Of a stretch of 36,087 bases of DNA, positions 8,448-30,777 are shown in pieces (position 1 is the first letter of the stretch; each line of letters opens with the position of its first letter). Source of the stretch: Deltaproteobacteria bacterium (GTDB lineage: Bacteria; Desulfobacterota; Binatia; UTPRO1); assembly GCA_029262315.1 (NCBI GenBank), contig JAJCZP010000047.1, forward strand, positions 1 through 36,087. Reading direction: 5' to 3'. A program made the translations under genes and the position numbers. The notes under the pieces are model-generated. The model was given only the letters and a program-made list of their open reading frames with translations. It searched no databases and was not told the origin of the DNA.

Positions 8448-8701
8448 CGCTCGACGAATGGATTGGATCGATCGGCGTCGCATTGCTCCTGCTTGGCTTC
8501 TTCGCCAACGCGTTCGGATACCTTCCGACCGAGACGCGGCGCTACCACGGCCTGAACGCGATCGGCGCCGCGCTGGCCTGCCTCGCCTCGTTCCAGATCG
8601 GCTTCTTCCCTTTCGTGGTCCTCGAAGGCGTGTGGGGCCTGGTGGCGTTGGCGGCACTCGCGCGGCTGCCTCGGCACCACCACACGCATCGCCCGGCTTG
8701 A
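8444..8701 (+). CDS. CBU_0592-like small membrane protein
   Basis: An 85-residue protein with about three membrane helices (WIGSIGVALLLLGFFANAFG, then LNAIGAALACLASFQIG, then FVVLEGVWGLVALAALARL). The layout and the GxxLLLLxF and VWGLxxL elements fit the CBU_0592-type family of small bacterial membrane proteins, function unknown. The ATG at 8444 overlaps the stop of the SDR remnant, and longer frames upstream have no family support. The Rieske gene begins 17 bases after the stop, so it is probably part of the same transcript. Confidence 0.7.
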   Translation: MTLDEWIGSIGVALLLLGFFANAFGYLPTETRRYHGLNAIGAALACLASFQIGFFPFVVLEGVWGLVALAALARLPRHHHTHRPA

Positions 8702-8718
8702 GCAGAGAGGAGATCGCC

Positions 8719-9867
8719 ATGCCCCATCAAGTTCTCTCGCAAGTTCTCTCACCGCACCACCTCGCCCAAACTCGTCAGCCGTTGGAAAGAGCAACGACAC
8801 TACCCGCCGAGGCGTTCACGTCCCAGTCGGTCTACGAAGGCGAGATCGAGCGCATCTTCTTGCGGGAGTGGCTCTGCGCGGGCCGCATCGACCAGATCCC
8901 CGATGCGGGTGACTACTTCACGCTCGACCTGCTCGGCGACAAGCTGGTAGTCGTTCGGGGCACCGACGAACAGATTCGGGTGTTGTCGCGCGTCTGCCGA
9001 CACCGGGCCGCCGAGGTCGTACGCGGCGCCGGCAACACACGTTCCTTTCGATGCCCGTACCACGCGTGGACCTATCATCTCGACGGCAGTCTGGCTGGAG
9101 CGCCCTACATGGATGGTGCCGCAGGCTTCGATCGAAAGACCTGCCGCCTCCCAGAACTCCGAAGCGAACTCTGGGAGGGCTGGATCTTCGTCAACTTCGA
9201 CCCGGACGCGACCCCGCTCGGCCCACGGCTGACACCACTCTCCAGGACGCTCGCCAACTATCGCATGTCGGAAATGATCGCGGTGGAGACGGCAACGTTC
9301 GACTCACCATTCAACTGGAAGGTGCTCGTCGACAACTTCATGGAGGCCTACCACCATATCGCCATCCATCACGATACGTTCGAGCCCATCCACCCGGCGG
9401 CACTCTCGCATAGCCCCGACAACGAGGGGCCGTACGCGCTGCTCTTCATGCCTCCGACACAAACGCCTGTTCCGGGAGCGGACAACCCGCTGGGCAACCT
9501 TCCTCGACATGGCTCACTTGCCGAAGACGAGATCGGAACGCTCGTGGCGGCCGCCGTCTTTCCCTTCCACCTCTTCGCGCCGTCGGGCGACTCCTTGGCC
9601 TGGTATCAGATCCTCCCACAGACCTTCGATCGATTTACGCTTCGCATCTTCAGCTGTTTTCCGCGCGCCGCATTGGAGAACGCCGAGTTCGAGGATTCGG
9701 TGCGGATGCTGCAGGAATTCACAAAGGTGGTCCACCATCAGGACATACAGGCGTGCGAGACTACCTGGGCCGGCCTCAACTCACGCTCCTTCACCCAAGG
9801 GCGACTCTCTCGCCTCGAAAAGCCCATCTGGCAATTCAACCAGTGGTGGCTGGAGCGGATGTCGTAG
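8719..9867 (+). CDS. Rieske non-heme iron oxygenase, large (alpha) subunit
   Basis: A 382-residue ring-hydroxylating or demethylating oxygenase component. The Rieske 2Fe-2S site is C93-x-H95 and C112-x2-H115 (CRHR, then CPYHAW). The mononuclear iron site is seen in DNFMEAYHHIAIHH with H212 and H217, completed by D342 in HHQDIQACE; D205 is the electron-bridging Asp. The order and spacing match the SRPBCC catalytic domain of GbcA/CntA-type and aromatic oxygenase subunits. GAGAGGAG precedes the ATG. No small subunit or reductase is encoded nearby, so electrons must come from elsewhere. It ends a plus-strand group that lies behind the TetR palindromes. Confidence 0.93.
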   Translation: MPHQVLSQVLSPHHLAQTRQPLERATTLPAEAFTSQSVYEGEIERIFLREWLCAGRIDQIPDAGDYFTLDLLGDKLVVVRGTDEQIRVLSRVCRHRAAEVVRGAGNTRSFRCPYHAWTYHLDGSLAGAPYMDGAAGFDRKTCRLPELRSELWEGWIFVNFDPDATPLGPRLTPLSRTLANYRMSEMIAVETATFDSPFNWKVLVDNFMEAYHHIAIHHDTFEPIHPAALSHSPDNEGPYALLFMPPTQTPVPGADNPLGNLPRHGSLAEDEIGTLVAAAVFPFHLFAPSGDSLAWYQILPQTFDRFTLRIFSCFPRAALENAEFEDSVRMLQEFTKVVHHQDIQACETTWAGLNSRSFTQGRLSRLEKPIWQFNQWWLERMS

Positions 9868-16073: not shown

Positions 16074-17651
16074 TCACACTTCGACCGCGTAGATCTCGAC
16101 GGGCGCCGCGATCCCCTTCAGCGGCACGCTGCCACACGACTTGAACCGCAGGCCGTCGTGGTCGCCGAAAGCTTCGAACGTGCTGGCGGTAACGAGGATC
16201 GACTCCGGAAACTCGCGCGTCTTCACCTGCAAGCGTGCCGCTTGGTTCACCGCGTCACCGACAACCGTGTACGTCACCCGCGACGACGAGCCGAGGTTTC
16301 CGGCGATTATGTCCCCGGTACAGATGCCGATACCTGCCTCGAGCGATTCCTCTTCTTCGCCCTGATTGTGCTTGGCGAGCTCTCGTTGCAACGCGACGCC
16401 CGCACGCACGGCACGGCGCGCGTGGTCTTCGACGGGAACCAAGGGCCCGCCGAACACGACGACGACGCCATCGCCCAGAAACTGCGTGATGATCCCGCTC
16501 TCCCGTCCGCAGACCTGCTCGACGATCTGGTAGTACTGATTCAACAACCCGACGACGTGAGCTGGCGACAAGCGTTCGGTGAGCGCCGTAAAGCCACGGA
16601 GATCGGCGAAGAGAGCCGTGGCTCGCACGACCTCTCCCCCGAATGCCACACCCCGCTCGAGCGCCGCGTGTGCGACCTGCGGACTCACGTAGCGACCGAA
16701 GAGTTCACCCACCACGCGGGCGCGGCGAAGATCGCCCAGCATGACGTTGAAATGCTCGTTCAGTTCCCCGAGCTCATCGGTGCTCCGCACCGGCACCGCG
16801 ACATCGAGATCGCCCGTACTGACGCGAGCCATGGCGGCGCGCAATGCCTGTACCGGGCGATTGATGAAGCGCGCGGCAAGCAGCGCCATCGCCATCGACG
16901 CGACCAGCGAGACGCTCACAATGAACGTCTGCGTACGCATGAATTTCCCCCAAAGCACCGCAAGCTCTGGCGGTAGCTCTCCCCAGAGCCGCTGGGCGAC
17001 ACTCAGATCGACGGTCAGCATGAGCATCAGCGGAAACACCGCCGTCACGAGAAAGGTGGCTCCCATCCGCACCCGAATGGGAATGCGGAGCACACCGCGG
17101 CGGTCGACACGGCCGTCGGGGAAGAACAGCGGAATCTGGCGACGCCAGTAGAACTCGCTGACCAGAAAGGACATAGCGGACGTGACCGGCCCCGCGACGA
17201 TCACGAGTCCGAGGAAACTACGACTCGCCTCGCCGATGTCGACATCGGCGACGAGAATCAAATACGGGAAGTAGAAGATCGCCGCCACGAGCCAGCTCGC
17301 CATCGTGAGCACGGCGTTGACCAGCGGCGCGTTCAGCGCCCGCCGCCGCACATCGGCCGGCACCTGGCTGGCTTCGAGACCTTCGCGCAACCATCGCGCC
17401 CAGCGACGGAGCGACCCGTGCCAGCGGGCGGACAGGAAGACGTTGGCGGTGATGAGCGTCGTCGCCACAGCCGCGAAAAGGAGAAACTGCTGGATCTCGG
17501 GCTGCGCCGGCCCGATCAGCGGATTGATGTAGTTGAAGTACGCATAGACGAGCAGCGCGGCCACCACATTGGTGGGCACAACGGGCAATGCCGTCGCGCG
17601 TACGAGCAAGCGATGCTCGGTCGCGACCCGCTGATCGTAGGGAGGAAGCAT
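16074..17651 (-). CDS. Six-TM HAMP adenylate/guanylate cyclase, class III
   Basis: A 525-residue membrane cyclase. About six membrane helices occupy residues 20-265, a HAMP linker follows (about 250-310, INRPVQALRAAMARVSTGDL), then the class III catalytic domain from about 340. Metal-binding Asp350 (FADLRGFT) and Asp394 (FLGDG) and the transition-state pair Asn469 and Arg473 (DAVNQAARL) are present. The purine-selecting Lys and Asp of canonical enzymes are Gln390 and Thr462. The six-TM plus HAMP plan is like mycobacterial Rv1318c-type cyclases. Expected product is cAMP, with cGMP possible. GAGG lies 6 bases before the ATG. No cAMP receptor gene is nearby. Confidence 0.92.
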   Translation of the reverse strand: MLPPYDQRVATEHRLLVRATALPVVPTNVVAALLVYAYFNYINPLIGPAQPEIQQFLLFAAVATTLITANVFLSARWHGSLRRWARWLREGLEASQVPADVRRRALNAPLVNAVLTMASWLVAAIFYFPYLILVADVDIGEASRSFLGLVIVAGPVTSAMSFLVSEFYWRRQIPLFFPDGRVDRRGVLRIPIRVRMGATFLVTAVFPLMLMLTVDLSVAQRLWGELPPELAVLWGKFMRTQTFIVSVSLVASMAMALLAARFINRPVQALRAAMARVSTGDLDVAVPVRSTDELGELNEHFNVMLGDLRRARVVGELFGRYVSPQVAHAALERGVAFGGEVVRATALFADLRGFTALTERLSPAHVVGLLNQYYQIVEQVCGRESGIITQFLGDGVVVVFGGPLVPVEDHARRAVRAGVALQRELAKHNQGEEEESLEAGIGICTGDIIAGNLGSSSRVTYTVVGDAVNQAARLQVKTREFPESILVTASTFEAFGDHDGLRFKSCGSVPLKGIAAPVEIYAVEV

Positions 17652-19573: not shown

Positions 19574-19593
19574 ACCGTGCAGGCTCGCACGGT
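19574..19593 (+). terminator. Possible terminator hairpin after the pseudokinase-like gene
   Basis: ACCGTGC, loop AGGCTC, GCACGGT is a perfect 7-bp stem 21 bases after the stop codon. The nearest T-run (TTTT at about 19614) is 20 bases on, so this is a weak candidate for a rho-independent terminator. Confidence 0.35.
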
Positions 19594-19702
19594 CGCAGGC
19601 ACGACATGCGAGCTTTTCTGGACCTTTGCGCTCCGAGGTCCTGCCGCTGTCGTTTTCGGTGCTGCACGCACGCAACTCCTTCGGTACCTTGGCAGGCGGG
19701 GG

Positions 19703-21109
19703 ATGACGAACATGGGGTGGATCTTTCGTTCCGCGACCGAGCTCGCTGAGGCAATCGCTTCCCGGAAGGTGTCTTCAGAGGAGGTCGTGCGCGAACATCT
19801 ACACCGGATCGATGTGGCCAATCCGGCCCTGAATGCGGTCGTAGCGCGACTCGACGACGAGGCGCTTGCGGATGCCCAACGCGCGGACGACGAGCTGACC
19901 AGTGGAAAGCGGCGCGGCCCGCTACACGGCGTGCCGGTGACGCTGAAAGAATCGCTCTCGATGGCAGGCAAGGTCACCAGCTGCGGCTCCCAACTGCTAC
20001 AGCAGAACGTGACGCCGGAGAGCGCCACGGCTGTGGCTCGGCTCCGCGCCGCCGGCGCGATTCCGATCGGACGCACCAACGTGCCCGATATGGGTATGGA
20101 CGCGCAGACGCACAACCTGGTCTGGGGCACGACCCGCAATCCGTGGAATCATGCGCTCACCTGCGGAGGATCGAGCGGCGGCGAGGCAGCGGCAATCGCC
20201 TCCGGAATGTCTCCGCTCGGCCTTGGCTCGGACGTCGCGGGCTCGATCCGCATTCCAGCCTCCTTTTGCGGAATCCTCGGACTGAAACCGACGCAAAATC
20301 GCGTCTCCATCGCAGGCCACGTTCCGCTCGTGCTCTCGGACTACCTGCAAATCGGCCCGTTGGCGCGCTCGATCGACGACCTCGAACTCGCCCTCCGCAT
20401 CATCGCTGGCCCCGATGGCAAACAATCACTGATTCCACCGGTACCGCTCCCGCCCAGCAGCGAAGTACGCGCGAAGGAACTCCGCATCGGAATCATCAAT
20501 GGGAATGGCACGACACCGATCTCGCACGCCGTCGACGACGGCCTCGCACGCACCGCTCTGGCGGCTGTCGATGCGGGGCACCACGTCGAACCGGCCGACA
20601 TTCCAGGCGTGGAGGACGTGCTCCCGTGCCTGTCGCGTATCTACGGTGTGGCGCTCTCAGCGCTCTGCCGTAACGTCCGACACAACCCGGAGCGCTACCA
20701 CCCGTATCTCACGCAGCTGGAGGAGCTCTTCGGCGCGCCCACCGCGCGGGAAGTGGAAGAGTCCTACCGGCTCCGCGAAGAGCTGCGCGCTCGCATGATG
20801 GCGTGCTTCGCGCGCCACGACCTGCTCATCTGCCCCCAGGTCACGATCCCGGCGTTTCCGATCGGCACGACCTGGAACGAGGTCGACCTCGATGGCGCAA
20901 CGGTCCCGCTCGTCTCGACACTCGTCTACTCCTTCCTGGTCAACGTAACCGGCAATCCAAGCCTGGCGATCCCGACCGGCTTGAGCGATGGAATGCCGAT
21001 CGGCGTGCAGATCGTCGGCCGCATGTGGGACGAGCCGACGATTCTGGCCGCCGCTCGGCCCTTGCTGGACGCACTCGGTGGCGTGCCCGCGCCCCCGAAG
21101 CTTTCGTAA
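19703..21109 (+). CDS. Amidase signature family hydrolase
   Basis: A 468-residue amidase with the complete Ser-cisSer-Lys site: Lys82 in GVPVTLKES, the cis-Ser Ser157 in [10 protein letters not shown] and the nucleophile Ser181 in [12 protein letters not shown]. It should hydrolyse an amide or ester in the cytoplasm; fatty amide, aryl amide and nylon-oligomer-type substrates all occur in the family. It lacks the GatA-specific context, since no gatB or gatC is nearby. Two starts are close together, ATG at 19703 and ATG at 19712; the second has better spacing from the GGGGG stretch, so the true protein may lack the first three residues. The alpha/beta hydrolase gene follows after 27 bases. Confidence 0.92.
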
Positions 21110-22281: not shown

Positions 22282-22679
22282 GCCATATGCTCTTTCGGAG
22301 TCTCAGTTGCCGAGCCGCTATGGCGATACGACCGGCACTGCACGGGGCGCCGTGTGGGGGGACGAAGCTTTCTGGGGAACGATGTGAGGCGCACCGTGTC
22401 GGCGGGGGGATGACGAGGTGGTGCTTGCGCCGCTGATCGGGGGATCGGGCGGCGCAAGCGCCATAGCGGACCACGCCACGGACGCTCGCGTCGGAGTCAG
22501 AGACCTGACAGCGGCGCAACGATGGCGAGGAGTTACTCAGGTGGCGATCGCAGCCTCGAGGCGGGCCGACAGCGGGACCGGTCCCTTGGAAGAACAGTAG
22601 GTTACCCTGCCCGAACGCGGCGCCTGCACGGTACCGAGCGGCATAGGCCTTGCTCACCCATCCGCGTAGCAAAACTATC
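22282..22679. other. Gene-free stretch before the histidine kinase gene
   Basis: No supported gene was found here on either strand; the open frames have poor composition. The one clear structure is the stem-loop at 22423-22459. The stretch should hold the promoter of the kinase gene, but I see no convincing -35/-10 pair. Confidence 0.5.
22423..22459. other. Strong 11-bp stem-loop in the gene-free region
   Basis: GCTTGCGCCGC at 22423-22433 pairs perfectly with GCGGCGCAAGC at 22449-22459. Within the 15-base loop, GATC at 22435-22438 can pair with GATC at 22443-22446 around GGGG. No T-run follows on either strand, so a classic terminator is unlikely. It lies about 220 bases before the histidine kinase start and may be a leader structure or protein site. 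Confidence 0.5.
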
Positions 22680-25403
22680 GTGGATGCCTCCGAGCACAAC
22701 CTGCCGGACGAGGAATCGTCGCGCCAGCCACACCATCGCTGGCCGTTCGTCTATTTCCTCCTCGCGGCGTTCGACGTCCTGATCGTCCTCGCCAGCATCG
22801 GGCTGAACCACACCCTCGTCAACATCCACCGCGAGAATCTCGACCTCGACCAGGTCTGGGCCACCCGTTTGGCCACCTACGACGAGCTCCACGAGCAGGC
22901 CGCCGCGGTGAACGCCCCCGTGAACGACGTCCTGTTTTCGAAAGACTTCATCGCCGAGAAGGCCAAACTCCGTGCGGCCCGCCGCGTGTTCGATGCCGCG
23001 CTCGCCGCAGCAAGCGCCGATCTCGAACGCACGGCCGGGGACCTGAGCCCCGAGGAGTTGGGGCAACTCCAACACGACTTCACCGACATTCACCGCGCAA
23101 TGAACGTCATGGTCGCAGAGGCCAACATGACGTTCTCGTACTTCTCCATCGGCGCACCGATCCAAGCGGGCGAGTGGATGGCGACCATGCAGCGCAAGTA
23201 CAACGACGTCGGCGCAGCGTTCGGACAGCTCGAGCGCGATGTGCGCGCGATGCAAACCGAGTTGCTGGCTCGACAAGCGGCATCGGCCGCCTCGATCCAG
23301 CAGACGGAGTACATTCTCGCGTTCTTCGTCGCGTGCATGATCCTCGCCGCACTCTTGTATGGCGGCCGGCTCATGCACCAGGCGAAACTCGCCATGGAGG
23401 AACGGCGACATCATCTCGACGAACTCGTGCAGGCCAAGGAATCCGCGCTCGAGGCCTCGCGCCTGAAGTCGGAGTTTCTCGCCAACATGAGCCACGAGAT
23501 CCGAACGCCGATGAACGGCGTCATCGGAGCAACCGAGCTCGCGCTCGAGACCGACCTGTCGAACGAACAGCGCGAGTATCTCGAGCTCACCAAATCGTCG
23601 GCCGATGCACTGCTCGCACTTTTGAACGACATTCTCGACTTCTCGAAGATCGAGGCGGGCAAACTCGACCTCGAAGCCGTGCCCTTCGGGCTGCGCGAGA
23701 CCCTCGAAAGCAGCATGAAGACGCTGGCGCTGCGTGCCCACCAGAAGCGGCTGGAGCTCGTGTGCCACATCTCGCCGGAGGTTCCCGATGGACTCGTCGG
23801 AGATCCGGGGCGGCTTCGCCAGATCGTCATCAACCTCGTCGGCAACGCCATCAAATTTACGGAGCGTGGCGAGGTCGCGCTGCATCTCGACGTCACCGAG
23901 GCCGACGACACCAGCGTGCAGTTGCACTTCAGCGTCTCCGACACGGGAATCGGCATTCCGCCCGACAAGCAACGACTCATCTTCGGGGCGTTCACCCAAG
24001 CCGATGGGTCGACCAGCCGCCGCCACGGCGGCACCGGGCTCGGCCTCGCGATCTGCTCACAGCTCGTGCAGATGATGGGCGGCCGCATCTGGGTCGAAAG
24101 CGATGTCGGGAAGGGCAGTACGTTCCAATTCACCACGAGGCTCAACATGAGCGAGGAGGCTGGTTTGCGCGCGAATCTCGAGGATCTTCGAGGTCTGAAC
24201 GTTCTGATCGTCGACGACAACGCGACCAACCGTCGTATTCTGACGGAGCGGATACGTGGCTGGTGGATGGAGCCCCAGGCCGCCGAGGATGGACCGGGTG
24301 CGATTGCCGCCCTGCGCCGCGCGGTCGACCAGGGCCGGCCCTTCGATCTGGTACTGCTCGATTGCAACATGCCGGGACTCGACGGCTTCGCCGTCGCCGC
24401 CCGCGTCCAGCAAGACCCAGATCTTGCCTCCGCCACACTGATCATGCTGACCTCGGCAGGCGAGCATGGCGGCGCGGCCCGATGCAAGGAACTCGGCGTC
24501 GCCGGGTACCTCATGAAGCCTGTCGCCGCTGCCGACCTCCTGCGCACGCTCCACACGGCGCTGGCCTCCGGAGGCGAGCCCGCCAAGAAGCGCCCCGGCA
24601 TCGCACCTCCCGTGGAGCGGGTCGATCGCGAGACGAAGCTGCGTGTGCTGCTGGCCGAGGACAATCCCGTGAATCGAACACTGGGGCTCCGCATGCTCTC
24701 CAAGCTCGGATACGACGTGGTCGGGGCCGAGGACGGCCGGAAAACTGTAGAGGCCGTCGTCAATGGGAGCTTCGACCTCGTGCTGATGGATCTGCAAATG
24801 CCCGGAATGGACGGCTTCGAAGCGACCACCGCCATCCGGGAACGCGAGCGTGGTACCGACCAGCACCTGCCCATCGTCGCTCTGACCGCCCATGCCATGC
24901 AGGGCGACCGCGAGCGATGTCTGGCCGTCGGGATGGACGGGTTCGCCTCGAAACCGATTCAGGCGGCAGAGCTTACCGCGGCCATCGAGAAGCTCGTGCC
25001 AATCACCACGGCCGGCGCCCCGGATGACGCGCCCGTTCCCACATCGAACGCGACCCCAACTGCGGTCCTCGACCGTGAGGCGCTCTACGACCAAGTCGGC
25101 GACGACCCCGAACTTCTGCTGAGAATCGTCGGGCTGTTTCTCGACGATAGCCGTACGGTGCTCGCCGATCTCCTCGAAGGGCTCACGAAGAACGACAACG
25201 ATGCCATCCAACGCGGCGCGCACCGCTTGAAAGGCGCACTCCTAACCCTCGGCGCCAACCCAGCGGCGGAAGTCGCGCGCGAACTCGAGCGTCTGGGTCG
25301 TTCGGGGAGTCTCGATGGCGCGGACACCGTGCTTCACGATCTGCAACGCGAGCTGGCGGCGCTCCAACCCGAACTCGAAGCGCTGACTCGCACCTCCCCC
25401 TAG
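22680..25403 (+). CDS. Hybrid sensor histidine kinase, HK-REC-REC-HPt
   Basis: A membrane phosphorelay kinase of about 907 residues. TM1 is at 22-42 and TM2 at 211-229, enclosing an external sensor region of about 165 residues with no recognised fold. HisKA follows with His272 (NMSHEIRTP), then the ATPase domain ([33 protein letters not shown]), a first receiver with Asp561, a second with Asp704, and an HPt domain with His848 (GAHRLKGA). There is no in-frame ATG near the start; I chose GTG at 22680, with TTG at 22650 as the alternative. No response regulator gene is in the window, so the partner is elsewhere. It overlaps the convergent epimerase gene by 4 bases. Confidence 0.93.
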
Positions 25404-26536: not shown

Positions 26537-28549
26537 TTACGGGCAGCTCACGCAGTCGATGACTGTATCGGACCCCACCGTCTTGAAGGGACACTCGAGC
26601 GGGCTCGGCTGCGGGTCGCCGCTGCTCGCCGTTGAGTTGCAGGCCGTGCCAGCACCTTGGTCGGGACAATCCGTGATGCCGGTCGGACACGACTCACCGT
26701 TGTTCGTGCCGCCGGAGCAGAGCTTGATCAACACGTTTCGTGGGCTCGCGATCTGCGTTGTCCACGGATTGTTCGGATCCCGAGCGATCTCGGCATCGAT
26801 GAAGTCGACGATCGTGTCGACGCCACCGAGTGTGGAGTCGTAGACCTTGTTGCTGCCGAACATCGTGTGGCGCGACCCCGAAGACAGGTAGTAGCGGTAG
26901 TTGTCGTTCTGAGCCGAAATCGTGGCTTCGAGCGACGACATTTGCGCTTCCGCGATCGCGTTGTAGGCACACGTGGAATCCCACCAGCGCGGCCACGATG
27001 TCGCAACCTGTGTAATAGTCGGCTCACCCGGATAGGGGTGATTCACCATCACGTGGTGGAACCCACCGAGACCACCGCTGCCGCCATCGTGCGCCGCCAA
27101 ATACTGAGACATCTGCAAGTCGGGGAACTCGGTCGTAATGGCCTCGACCGAGCCCTCGAGAAACTGTGGCGACTTGATCAGCGCCAGGTCGATGGCGTCG
27201 ACGTCCAGTGACTCGAAGTTCTTGGTCAGCCCCCAGCGATCGAAGACCGTGTCCGCGAACTCCTGCGTCGGCTCGAAGGTTCCCGCGTCCGCCAGCTGAT
27301 TCACTTCGGAGTGCGAGTAGATGCGTGCGAGCGGCGTCACGTGCGTCAGGGAGCCGAACGCACCGGCACTCGAGCCCGTCACGAACACCACCTCCGGATC
27401 GAGGAAGTGCTCGCGCGCGAACTTCTCGGCCAGCCTGGCGTTGTGGAAACCGCGATGCTCGACGACCTTCTTACTGCCCGCACACAACCCCGGGAGCACG
27501 TTGTAGCTCTGGCTCTCGTCACCGGTATGGATGTCACAGCTGCAGTACGACACGAAGACGATGTTCCAATCCCGGAACGGGTTGTTCGGATTCGTGATGT
27601 CACCGAAACCGGTAGCGAACCCATTGTTCGGATTGTCGGAGCCGCCGACGTCGACATCCTGGTCGCACGTATTCAGACAGCACGTCGCGCCACTCCAGCA
27701 GACGCCGCCACCCTGGTAATACATGAGAAGCTTGTTCTCGGTGCCGCGCTTCACGAAGTACGAATACTCCGAGAAGTCCTGACAGCGCGGGATCAGGGTG
27801 TCGCCCTCGTATTCGACTTCGTGGCCCGGCTGTCCAAGGGTCGGATGCGTGATGGTGTCGAACATGTTGTCGGACACATTCGGCGACACCGTCGTCCCGG
27901 TCTTGATGTCGTCACGCAACGCATCGATCAGCGCCTCGACCCCCACGGTCGTTGCAGTGGAATTGGGGCAGGCAGCCAGACCGGCGTCGAACTTCTCTTC
28001 GAACTTGCCGCTGATCTTCGCGACTCCCTCGTTCAACTTGACGCGCTTCGGATCCTTGCCGGGATTCTTGATGAACTTGGAATAGGCCTTGTGAAGACCA
28101 GAGCACTTCTTGCTGGCTTCCTTCAGCAGTTTGGCGCCGCACTTCCCGTCGTCGCTCCCGGCTGGTGTGAGCGTCAGCCCGGCGTTGATCGCGGCCACGA
28201 CAGCATCGACGCCGCTCTCGACGAGCCCTTCGGCCGTCAGATTGTCGATCGTCGTGTCGGCGCAATCGACACCCTTGCCGAGCGCCTTGGTGTCGGCCTT
28301 GGTCCACTTCGCCAAGAACTTGCTCTCGGCTTTGCCAATCGCGGTGTCGCGCTTGGCCGTATCCTGGCCCTTGTCCCAGTTGGAGTGGGCCTTCAGGTAG
28401 GCCTGGCACAGTTTACCGGCCTCCTTGATCTTCCCACTGACGCACTTGTTGCCCTCGTACACGCCCGCGGCGGCGTCGTGCACTGGAATGGTCGCGACCA
28501 GCGCGAACGCGAAGGTCAGGGAGACGGCGAGAAAGGCACGGTTGGGCAT
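26537..28549 (-). CDS. Secreted pectin-acetylesterase/Notum-like hydrolase with Lys-rich Cys repeats (copy 1)
   Basis: A 670-residue exported protein. A signal peptide ends near AAA28. Residues 34-125 and 133-215 are two related Lys-rich helical repeats, each opening with a KC...C pair (C36/C48 and C137/C149) and having a later Cys (C96, C194). The hydrolase part (about 245-590) has YQGGGVCW (279-285) as oxyanion strand, G-S-S394-A-G as nucleophile elbow, LADAG (419-423, cf. LADSG in Notum/PAE) and SSGSRH561 as base. A Cys-containing tail with GDPQPSP ends the protein. GGAGGAG precedes the ATG. Its paralogue lies directly upstream on the same strand. It probably deacylates a polysaccharide or other ester outside the cell; the substrate is not known. 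Confidence 0.85.
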   Translation of the reverse strand: MPNRAFLAVSLTFAFALVATIPVHDAAAGVYEGNKCVSGKIKEAGKLCQAYLKAHSNWDKGQDTAKRDTAIGKAESKFLAKWTKADTKALGKGVDCADTTIDNLTAEGLVESGVDAVVAAINAGLTLTPAGSDDGKCGAKLLKEASKKCSGLHKAYSKFIKNPGKDPKRVKLNEGVAKISGKFEEKFDAGLAACPNSTATTVGVEALIDALRDDIKTGTTVSPNVSDNMFDTITHPTLGQPGHEVEYEGDTLIPRCQDFSEYSYFVKRGTENKLLMYYQGGGVCWSGATCCLNTCDQDVDVGGSDNPNNGFATGFGDITNPNNPFRDWNIVFVSYCSCDIHTGDESQSYNVLPGLCAGSKKVVEHRGFHNARLAEKFAREHFLDPEVVFVTGSSAGAFGSLTHVTPLARIYSHSEVNQLADAGTFEPTQEFADTVFDRWGLTKNFESLDVDAIDLALIKSPQFLEGSVEAITTEFPDLQMSQYLAAHDGGSGGLGGFHHVMVNHPYPGEPTITQVATSWPRWWDSTCAYNAIAEAQMSSLEATISAQNDNYRYYLSSGSRHTMFGSNKVYDSTLGGVDTIVDFIDAEIARDPNNPWTTQIASPRNVLIKLCSGGTNNGESCPTGITDCPDQGAGTACNSTASSGDPQPSPLECPFKTVGSDTVIDCVSCP

Positions 28550-28692
28550 TCGAACTCCTCCGTTGGGTCCACACTGGACGGCAAGATCTTCAGGTTACGG
28601 CACCTCCCTGACCTCTAGCGCAGCCGCCGACGAAGGGTCAATGGGAATCTGGCGCCGCGGCGCGTCATGGCGGCGAATTCCTCCGCCCCACG

Positions 28693-28735
28693 AAAAAGGG
28701 CGCGGACCCGCCGTAGCGGACCCGCGCCCAAAATC
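28693..28735 (-). terminator. Rho-independent terminator after the second secreted hydrolase gene
   Basis: On the minus strand GGGCGCGG and CCGCGCCC (28722-28729 with 28698-28705) form the outer stem, CCGC and GCGG (28709-28720) an inner one, followed by TTTTT at 28693-28697. It lies about 20 bases after the stop of the gene at 28751 and is a classic terminator, close in sequence to the hairpin after copy 1. Confidence 0.75.
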
Positions 28736-28750
28736 GAGTTCAGCGCCGCG

Positions 28751-30721
28751 TTACGGCGTGCAATCCGTGCAGTTGATCACAACGTCTGGCCCGCTCATCT
28801 CAAACGGGCAACCGAACGGACTCGGCTGCGGATCGCCGGGATCGACCAGCACGTTAGACGGGCTTGCCTCCACGTTGGCCGGCAGTGGATCGGTTCGGTC
28901 CAGCAGGTCGTTGACCCAGCTGACGAGGGTCGGCACTCCACCAAGCGTACTGGTGTAGGCCCGATCCGTCGGGAACGTGCCGTGCACGCTGCCCGACGAC
29001 ACGTAGTAGCGGTAGTTGTCGTTCGCTACACCAGCCGAGGTCGCCGCAAGCTGATCGGTGAGATGCCCGTTCCACTCGCAGATGCTGTCCCACCAGCTGG
29101 CCCATACCAGGATGTTATTGAGGTTCTTCATCACGTGGTAGAAACCGCCCTGCCCGTTCGGACCGTCGAACGCGTTGGTCACGTGCGCGTAGTTCGTATC
29201 CGGGAAGAGATTGGCGCTGAAGATGTGGGCGGCCTCGTTGGTCGGCCCCTGGAGCGTGATACCAGCCGGAAAATTCTTGAGTGCGTCCCAGTTGGCGAAG
29301 ACCGTGTCGAGGAACACCTGGGTGACGACGAGCACGAACGAGTCGTAGATGACCGTCTTCTCCGCCGCTGGATACGCCAGATTGTAGAAGTACTGGTGCA
29401 GTGGGAGACCCGCCGACCCTGCGCTGAGACCCGTCACAACGAGTTCGTCAGGATCGAGGAAGTGCTCGCGAACGAACTTCTCCGCGACCTTGGCGTTCTG
29501 GAAACCTCGGTGGCGAGCCGCACGGATAGAATTCGGGATACCACCCGAGTAGCTCTGGTCTGCGGCGTCGCCGCTGAAAACGTCTCCAGCGCACGTCGGC
29601 ACCCAAACAATGGTCCAGTCGTGCCACGGATTGTTCGGATCACTGAAGTCGAAGAATCCAGGCGCGCCTGGGTCGAGCAGCTGGTTGGCGTTGTCGTTAC
29701 CGATGCAGTCGGTCTCGTCGACACACGCATTGCCGTTCGAGGCAGCCGAACCATTCTCACAGATGTTGGAGTTACACTCACCGTAAACCTGGACGTCGGG
29801 GTCGGTGGTGCCAGCCAGGTAGCAGGAGTTGAAGTCCCAGCACGCGCCACCACCCTCGAGATGGACGAAGACCTTGTTCTCGTTGCCGTTCTCACCACGC
29901 TTCACGAAGAACGAGAAGTCGTCGAAGTTGTCCGGGTCGGCGAGCGGGGCGGAGAGGCAGCTTGGCGAATGCGTGCGGCCCTCGTACTCGACCGTCTCTT
30001 GAATATTCGGGTCGGCGTGTGCCGCAAAGGTAAAGATATCGAACTCGGTGTCGGAAACGTTCGGCGAGATCGTGGTGTTGGCGACCATGTCGTCACGGAG
30101 GCCGTCAATCAGGAGCTCGACGCCCGCTGTCGTTGCGGTGCTATTCGGGCAGGCAGCCAACGCAGAGTCGAATTTGCCCTCGAACTTGTCCGTCACCTTC
30201 AGGTTGGCGGCATCGAGCTTGACCTTGCTCGGATCCTTACCTGGAGCCTTGATGTACTTGCTGAAGTTCTTGATGAGCCCATCGCACTTCTTTGTGGTTT
30301 CGCCGAGGAGCTTGGCACCGCACTTGCCGTCATCACTCCCGGCCGGCGTAAGCGTCAGGCCACCATTGACGTCGGCCACGATCGCGGCAACCGCCGCGTC
30401 GATCAACGCCTGAGCACCAGCGAGACTGATCGTCGTATCCGCGCAATCGGTACCCTTGGCGAGCGCCTTGCCATCGATCTTGTCCCACTTCTCGGCAAAC
30501 TTGGTCGTGGTCTTGAGAATCGCCGCGTCGCGCTTGACGGCATCTTGGGTCTTGTCCCATTTGGACCAGGCCTTGAGCAGCCCCTTACAGGTCTTGCCCG
30601 CTTCTTTCAGCTTCGAGCTCACGCACTTATTGGCCTCGAAGGTCGCGGCGTCGGCTGCGGGAAGTGGCGCAAGGGCGGTAACCGCCCACACGATTGCCAG
30701 GGTAAACGATAGCCTCTTCAT
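28751..30721 (-). CDS. Secreted pectin-acetylesterase/Notum-like hydrolase with Lys-rich Cys repeats (copy 2)
   Basis: A 656-residue paralogue of the neighbouring gene with the same plan: signal peptide ending near ADA25, Lys-rich Cys repeats at about 31-120 and 130-210, and a PAE/Notum-like hydrolase with HLEGGGACW as oxyanion strand, G-L-S433-A-G as elbow, IYDSF (458-462) where copy 1 has LADAG, WWDS and SSGSVH580. Between 300 and 350 it has a Cys-rich insertion (six Cys around CNSNIC and CVDETDC) that copy 1 lacks. The tail GDPQPSPFGCPF and final CTDC match copy 1. AAGGAGG precedes the ATG. A separate terminator follows each copy, so the two may be expressed apart. Confidence 0.85.
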   Translation of the reverse strand: MKRLSFTLAIVWAVTALAPLPAADAATFEANKCVSSKLKEAGKTCKGLLKAWSKWDKTQDAVKRDAAILKTTTKFAEKWDKIDGKALAKGTDCADTTISLAGAQALIDAAVAAIVADVNGGLTLTPAGSDDGKCGAKLLGETTKKCDGLIKNFSKYIKAPGKDPSKVKLDAANLKVTDKFEGKFDSALAACPNSTATTAGVELLIDGLRDDMVANTTISPNVSDTEFDIFTFAAHADPNIQETVEYEGRTHSPSCLSAPLADPDNFDDFSFFVKRGENGNENKVFVHLEGGGACWDFNSCYLAGTTDPDVQVYGECNSNICENGSAASNGNACVDETDCIGNDNANQLLDPGAPGFFDFSDPNNPWHDWTIVWVPTCAGDVFSGDAADQSYSGGIPNSIRAARHRGFQNAKVAEKFVREHFLDPDELVVTGLSAGSAGLPLHQYFYNLAYPAAEKTVIYDSFVLVVTQVFLDTVFANWDALKNFPAGITLQGPTNEAAHIFSANLFPDTNYAHVTNAFDGPNGQGGFYHVMKNLNNILVWASWWDSICEWNGHLTDQLAATSAGVANDNYRYYVSSGSVHGTFPTDRAYTSTLGGVPTLVSWVNDLLDRTDPLPANVEASPSNVLVDPGDPQPSPFGCPFEMSGPDVVINCTDCTP

Positions 30722-30777
30722 GAATCCTCCTTGGTGCGAATACTTCGAGAGATGGGGCCGCTGGAATGTACGGCACT

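Follow-up and report, generated by a model that had tools for sequence, protein, structure and literature searches.

Two neighbouring genes of an uncultured bacterium of the Binatota (UTPRO1; assembly of 5.9 Mb in 298 contigs) encode the proteins P0001 and P0002, each of which places a signal peptide and a two-unit helical module ahead of a hydrolase domain of the pectin acetylesterase (PAE)/Notum family. Both genes are located on the stretch of DNA analysed here (bases 1–36087 of contig C47, hereafter 'the window'). Our results suggest, with a probability of roughly 55%, that these proteins are exported carboxylesterases of PAE/Notum fold in which a disulfide-stapled six-helix accessory domain positions the enzyme. 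The hydrolase belongs to a known family, of which it represents an uncharacterised bacterial branch, and the module constitutes an unnamed domain family that is expanded in Binatota.

A previous sequence-only reading of the window had described P0001 and P0002 (670 and 656 residues) as tandem exported paralogues combining Lys-rich helical repeats with spaced cysteines and a PAE/Notum-like hydrolase, and had proposed structure prediction as a check. All parts of this description are borne out: the open reading frames (ORFs) are found where they had been placed and share 43% identical residues over their full length (59% across the N-terminal ∼220 residues); the signal peptides, judged by eye, consist of a charged start, a hydrophobic run and A-x-A ahead of the first unit; and repeats and hydrolase are corroborated as detailed below.

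Hydrolase domain

Both proteins match the Pfam PAE model (PF03283) above its cut-off of 26.6 bits, P0001 with 66.1 and P0002 with 33.7 bits. A structure model of P0002 was built on a 28-sequence alignment comprising the window proteins and their relatives, from which the conservation counts given throughout were likewise derived, and the full-length model exhibits a mean pLDDT (predicted local distance difference test) of 86 and a pTM (predicted template modelling score) of 0.87. Comparison of residues 224–630 of the model with Drosophila Notum (PDB 4uzk) yields a VIA-align Z-score of 28.5 (312 aligned residues, 3.5 Å, 18% identity), Foldseek matches the hydrolase to Notum with an E-value of 7e-10, and human NOTUM is found from the family profile by sequence alone (E 4e-13). 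As modelled, the hydrolase of P0002 is of the Notum-type α/β-hydrolase fold.

The Ser-Asp-His set is intact and occurs in the order of the PAE/Notum family. Plant PAEs carry their triad in the motifs GCSxG, NxayDxxQ and HCQ (PMC5465549), and the contexts of Ser433, Asp519 and His580 of P0002 are comparable, with the plant HCQ replaced by an RHTMW-like sequence (GSRHTMW-type in the family, GSVHGTF in P0002). The nucleophile motif is GxSAG in 28 of 28 sequences and not the GDSx of the bacterial CE12 (SGNH) pectin acetylesterases. Since Asp460 is as invariant as Asp519, it is the motif and not geometry that points to Asp519 as the proposed catalytic acid. Cys294 is likewise conserved in all 28 sequences.

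When compared with Notum (a palmitoleoyl-protein carboxylesterase; PDB 4uzk, 4uyu), the domain shares (i) the fold, (ii) GxSAG together with a conserved Asp and His, and (iii) a secreted, disulfide-rich character. However, sequence identity amounts to only 14–20%, the oxyanion region reads GGGACW or GGGVCW instead of GGWYCF, and Notum does not possess the helical module. Similarly, plant PAEs (PF03283; CAZy CE13) resemble P0001 and P0002 in Pfam assignment and triad motifs, but their HCQ and GGxWC motifs are absent here, and the window proteins are bacterial, carry the additional module and show no link to pectin.

A short Cys-rich insert (C-x-GG-x-N-x-G-x-x-C...DCP-x-G-x-C) is placed in a loop of the hydrolase in P0002 (residues ∼313–340) and is located near the C-terminus in P0001 (∼612–640) and others; it is also present in the relatives L034, L058, L073 and L090. 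Elsewhere in the same genome, seven weak matches to TIGR04201 were registered, all under the cut-off of that model.

Helical module and conserved cysteines

Modelled alone, the module of P0002 attains a mean pLDDT of 96.6 and a pTM of 0.91 and consists of six helices arranged as two times three. The two three-helix units are homologous to each other (HHalign probability 97.6%, E 3e-12), and each is also homologous to units that stand singly on unrelated proteins (98.3% and 97.4%), whereas 30 column-shuffled profiles, prepared for unit 1 only, reached at most 2%. No curated Pfam or NCBIfam model matched the unit, including the units of other proteins, in agreement with the earlier view of the repeat as a type found in uncharacterised proteins; among Pfam models, Cadherin_5 alone left a trace, in P0002, and with 13.5 and 15.3 bits it stayed below its cut-off of 26.5.

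Solved structures resembling the module were not retrieved by Foldseek at E < 0.001, and its best VIA-align Z-scores (8.9 for a designed protein complex and 8.7 for the PhoU-like 2iiu) are no higher than would be expected between helical bundles that are unrelated. The absence of a convincing match does not show, however, that the fold is novel. PhoU proteins are cytoplasmic regulators. PhoU-like six-helix proteins (2iiu, 2olt, 3l39) likewise consist of tandem three-helix units and align with Z about 8.5 over 170–179 residues, but this Z lies within helical-bundle noise and no Foldseek match under E 0.001 accompanies it. The small Cys modules of myxobacterial and Binatota exoproteins (TIGR02232 myxo_disulf_rpt/DUF4215 and TIGR04201) occur sometimes in one chain with the unit; they are short repeats, though, whereas the unit comprises ∼90 residues in three helices and matches none of these models.

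Conservation within the module resides in its cysteines. Cys33 and Cys93 are invariant among the 28 sequences, and the seven sequences lacking other cysteines have lost them only as pairs, never singly: Cys45 and Cys146 are gone in L063 and L064, Cys134 and Cys191 in L066, L067, L074 and L080, and both pairs in L083. In the tree, L063 is sister to L064 and L067 to L074, so that the independent losses number fewer than seven. Since the cysteines are kept or lost pairwise, we predict disulfides Cys33–Cys93 and Cys134–Cys191 within the units and Cys45–Cys146 between them, an assignment derived from co-loss and not from sulfur distances.

Charge behaves differently. In the window proteins, Lys accounts for 14.2% of residues in the module, whereas the hydrolase parts contain 1.7% and 2.3%, and net charges are +5/+6 for the two modules versus −31/−36 for the two hydrolases; acidic residues make up 12.7% of the module. 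Across the 28 sequences, module net charge spans −34 to +20 and Lys makes up between 0.5 and 14% of the module, in contrast to the conserved cysteines. Most relatives in clear Binatota metagenome-assembled genomes (MAGs) have a mildly positive module, and strongly acidic ones (−24 to −34) are found in L062, L070, L079 and L084, the last labelled Candidatus Binatia.

Distribution and origin of the fusion

A profile search of genome contigs with a broader alignment identified 39 loci in MAGs of Binatota and Myxococcota; an earlier contig search from the three paralogues of this genome alone, using repeat-derived patterns, had returned none. The Binatota hosts are UBA1149, HRbin30, 'Candidatus Binatia' and UTPRO1, the latter filed under Polyangiaceae at NCBI but placed among Binatota in PMC8262859. 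Hence, the module–PAE architecture is that of a conserved family with about 40 relatives and is not peculiar to this locus. The sequence-only reading had regarded the combination as undescribed, and we indeed found no description of a bacterial Notum/PAE protein with a helical module, or of the module in Binatia, in a literature search that left most subscription journals outside; the uniqueness which that reading implied is, however, contradicted by conservation of the architecture in both phyla.

A maximum-likelihood tree built from 50 hydrolase domains unites 46 of them in one clade (support 97/93), of which 42 are module-bearing, and the module-less lipoproteins L072, L075 and L076, which consist of a lipobox-like signal and the hydrolase alone, form a single group nested within it. 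The simplest reading of this topology is that module and PAE were fused once and that the module was subsequently lost once. L082 was also counted as module-less, yet the aligned hydrolase sequences of L082 and the module-bearing L065 are identical, which probably reflects a frame or assembly artefact. The three paralogues from our genome, namely P0001, P0002 and a protein of identical architecture on contig C180 (L011:5303-7168, +), cluster together (89/92), with P0002 on a long branch; the assembly encodes in addition a module-less PAE on contig C140.

Among 58 genomes (the source genome and its class relatives), 31 contain module and PAE, 23 neither, three the module only and one the PAE only, an association that is confounded by relatedness as entire families lack both. 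Across the phylum of the window, only seven of 198 genomes have the module. No relatives were found in viral contigs, which rules against viral spread of the family, and plasmid records contain just distant PAE domains (23–28% identity).

Tandem module–PAE pairs occur also in UBA1149-like relatives (L042/L043; G027 contig C87 and G020 contig C13), apparently by independent duplication. L076 (CAMBZJ010000029.1) is a contig titled as a Klebsiella pneumoniae MAG that carries a PAE of the clade; it is most likely mislabelled or from a mixed bin. Adjacent to the C180 paralogue, on the opposite strand (L011 1145-4942), lies the gene of a secreted-looking protein that is very long and contains a Thr/Pro-rich stretch of VTPT repeats.

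The unit on other exported proteins

With a broader unit profile, 10–31 unit matches per genome were obtained in nine Binatota genomes and 7–19 in four further genomes reached via the loci (of which G259 is evidently identical to G023), in line with the abundance of the repeat in Binatota anticipated from the window. Among 47 distinct unit-bearing proteins, 27 contain two units and 20 a single one, and in 43 the unit stands right behind a signal-peptide-like segment. The earlier suggestion to search for fusions of the repeat to other enzymes proved fruitful as well: besides PAE, the C-terminal partners include GSDH, YHYH, PETase/PAF-AH-like hydrolases (found both here and in a related genome), Lcl_C and DUF4215. 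Nine genomes which, by their titles, presumably belong to Myxococcota contain the two-unit module once each, on a PAE, with a second module protein in one of them.

Three exported proteins (L050, L103, L115) carry two units followed by a Thr-rich tail, possibly a glycosylated linker, either alone or ahead of YHYH. Contig C40 of our assembly encodes two proteins with degenerate units, one (L014:6194-10003, +) with a large C-terminal part that appears PHP/CehA-like by eye and the other (L014:3896-4735, −) with an Lcl_C domain.

Functional interpretation

In the view that we favour, P0001 and P0002 would be exported with the module, two copies of one three-helix unit, positioned N-terminal to the catalytic domain. 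The hydrolase may then cleave an acyl ester outside the cytoplasm via an acyl-Ser433 intermediate, and the non-catalytic module may hold the enzyme at, or orient it towards, an extracellular or surface ligand. Acyl-ester hydrolysis outside the cytoplasm via an acyl-serine is the most likely chemistry. As to the module, it apparently joined the enzyme once, was kept over two phyla, is predicted to be stapled by disulfides and is reused ahead of many exported domains unrelated to one another. We therefore regard it as most probably an accessory domain with the task of placing its partner.

Several observations weigh against such a role. The nested group of lipoproteins (L072, L075, L076) dispenses with the module altogether, and several Myxococcota relatives (e.g., L061, L062 and L070) combine it with a lipobox-like signal, so that it is not needed merely for keeping the enzyme on the cell. 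Moreover, we identified no ligand-binding residue pattern in the module, and clustering of the flanking ORFs of 41 loci yielded mainly the PAE gene itself and opposite-strand ORFs, with no substrate-naming neighbour and no repeated partner gene worked out.

The acyl group may well be other than acetyl, and medium-chain lipid esters are as likely as acetylated sugars. Slightly short of an even chance is given to the stricter proposal that the hydrolase acts on esters of medium or long acyl chains in the manner of a lipase and not as a polysaccharide deacetylase. LipT, a metagenome-derived bacterial lipase with measured esterase activity (PMC3480424) that has been assigned to the PAE family (PMC5424146), prefers C10 esters such as p-nitrophenyl decanoate and shows weak activity towards C4 (PMC3480424); the solved fold that comes closest, Notum, takes off a C16:1 acyl group; Binatota are described as alkane degraders and methylotrophs (PMC8262859); and the helical unit recurs on the PETase/PAF-AH-like hydrolases mentioned above. 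However, PF03283 also includes the plant PAEs, which act as acetylesterases, and an invariant Gly (GGGACW) takes the place of the Trp in Notum's GGWYC, so that the pocket of Notum need not exist. Furthermore, LipT is likened to P0001 and P0002 through its family assignment; it is a protein of about 36 kDa of thermophile origin in whose description no helical N-terminal module appears.

It is tempting to speculate, as a tentative extension of the favoured view, that the three-helix Cys unit serves as a general docking or retention adapter of the Binatota exoproteome which brings tens of different exported enzymes to one shared scaffold outside the cell or to one component of the surface; Myxococcota would then have received the PAE fusion or have it in common with Binatota. 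We consider it unlikely that the module works as a tag for sorting or retention within a surface system dedicated to this purpose in Binatota, akin to S-layer homology (SLH) domains, dockerins or C-terminal sorting domains. The location of the unit directly behind the signal peptide, its unrelated C-terminal partners and the 7–31 matches per closely examined Binatota genome would fit such a tag, but the module of Myxococcota resides essentially on PAE alone, for which a dedicated system is improbable, some of these proteins already possess a lipobox-like signal, and partner machinery was not found, though no search was aimed at one. Rather improbable, too, is a role of the module within its own chain, whether in helping the hydrolase to fold or in capping it for regulation: the module of Myxococcota accompanies PAE and almost nothing else, and both domains are part of one confident model (pTM 0.87), yet Binatota units accompany many unrelated domains and one PAE group lacks the module. 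Finally, the proposal of the sequence-only reading that the Lys-rich repeats use their charge to attach to an anionic polymer or surface is favoured by the Lys enrichment of the window modules and by the mildly positive modules of most clear Binatota relatives, but it is not supported as the function of the family and is distinctly unlikely, since acidic residues nearly offset Lys to leave a small net charge, four relatives have strongly acidic modules, and the cysteines are conserved whereas Lys is not.

Little is known about the exports of Binatota, a widespread and so far uncultured group. A unit that stands at the head of exported enzymes and is matched by no curated model provides a handle on this exoproteome and on enzyme placement, and the PAE/Notum branch offers a chance to learn the substrates of prokaryotic relatives of Notum and the plant PAEs, LipT with its preference for medium-chain esters being a case in point.

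Gene pair and genomic context

The coordinates of both genes, their domains and the putative catalytic residues are collected in Table 1. Good ribosome-binding sites precede both ATG codons (GGAGGAG at about 28555–28561 for P0001 and AAGGAGGA at about 30725–30732 for P0002). In view of the strong terminator-like hairpin between the genes, separate transcripts are probable, and an operon comprising both is doubtful.

Table 1. Features of the P0001/P0002 gene pair (window coordinates).
Feature	Position	Strand	Remarks
P0001 gene, 670 aa	26537..28549	-	signal peptide, two-unit helical module, PAE/Notum-like hydrolase; ORF, Pfam
P0001, Pfam PAE match, residues 255-431	27257..27787	-	E 3.9e-18
P0001, helical unit 2	27896..28153	-	
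P0001, helical unit 1	28187..28459	-	
Intrinsic-terminator-like hairpin directly 3' of P0002 stop	28698..28729	-	14-bp stem, 12 G-C pairs, then TTTTT
P0002 gene, 656 aa	28751..30721	-	signal peptide, two-unit helical module, PAE/Notum-like hydrolase; ORF, Pfam, model
P0002, Notum-fold hydrolase domain, model residues 224-630	28832..30052	-	VIA-align to Notum; Pfam PAE stretch 361-442
P0002, His580 codon, proposed catalytic His	28982..28984	-	27/28, remaining row a gap
P0002, Asp519 codon, proposed catalytic Asp	29165..29167	-	AFDG...GQ, cf. plant NxayDxxQ; 28/28
P0002, Ser433 codon, putative nucleophile	29423..29425	-	GxSAG; 28/28
P0002, helical unit 2, ~residues 130-217	30074..30334	-	helices 130-158, 167-189, 198-217; Cys 134, 146, 191
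P0002, helical unit 1, ~residues 29-118	30368..30637	-	helices 29-58, 61-88, 100-118; Cys 33, 45, 93

No polysaccharide genes were recognised among ten ORFs scanned in the window. The neighbours comprise a Rieske ring-hydroxylating oxygenase (8458–9867, +), a HAMP-guanylate/adenylate cyclase (16074–17651, −), an amidase (19577–21109, +) and, by eye, a hybrid histidine kinase (22650–25403, +), and the window encodes acyl-CoA dehydrogenases and short-chain dehydrogenases as well.

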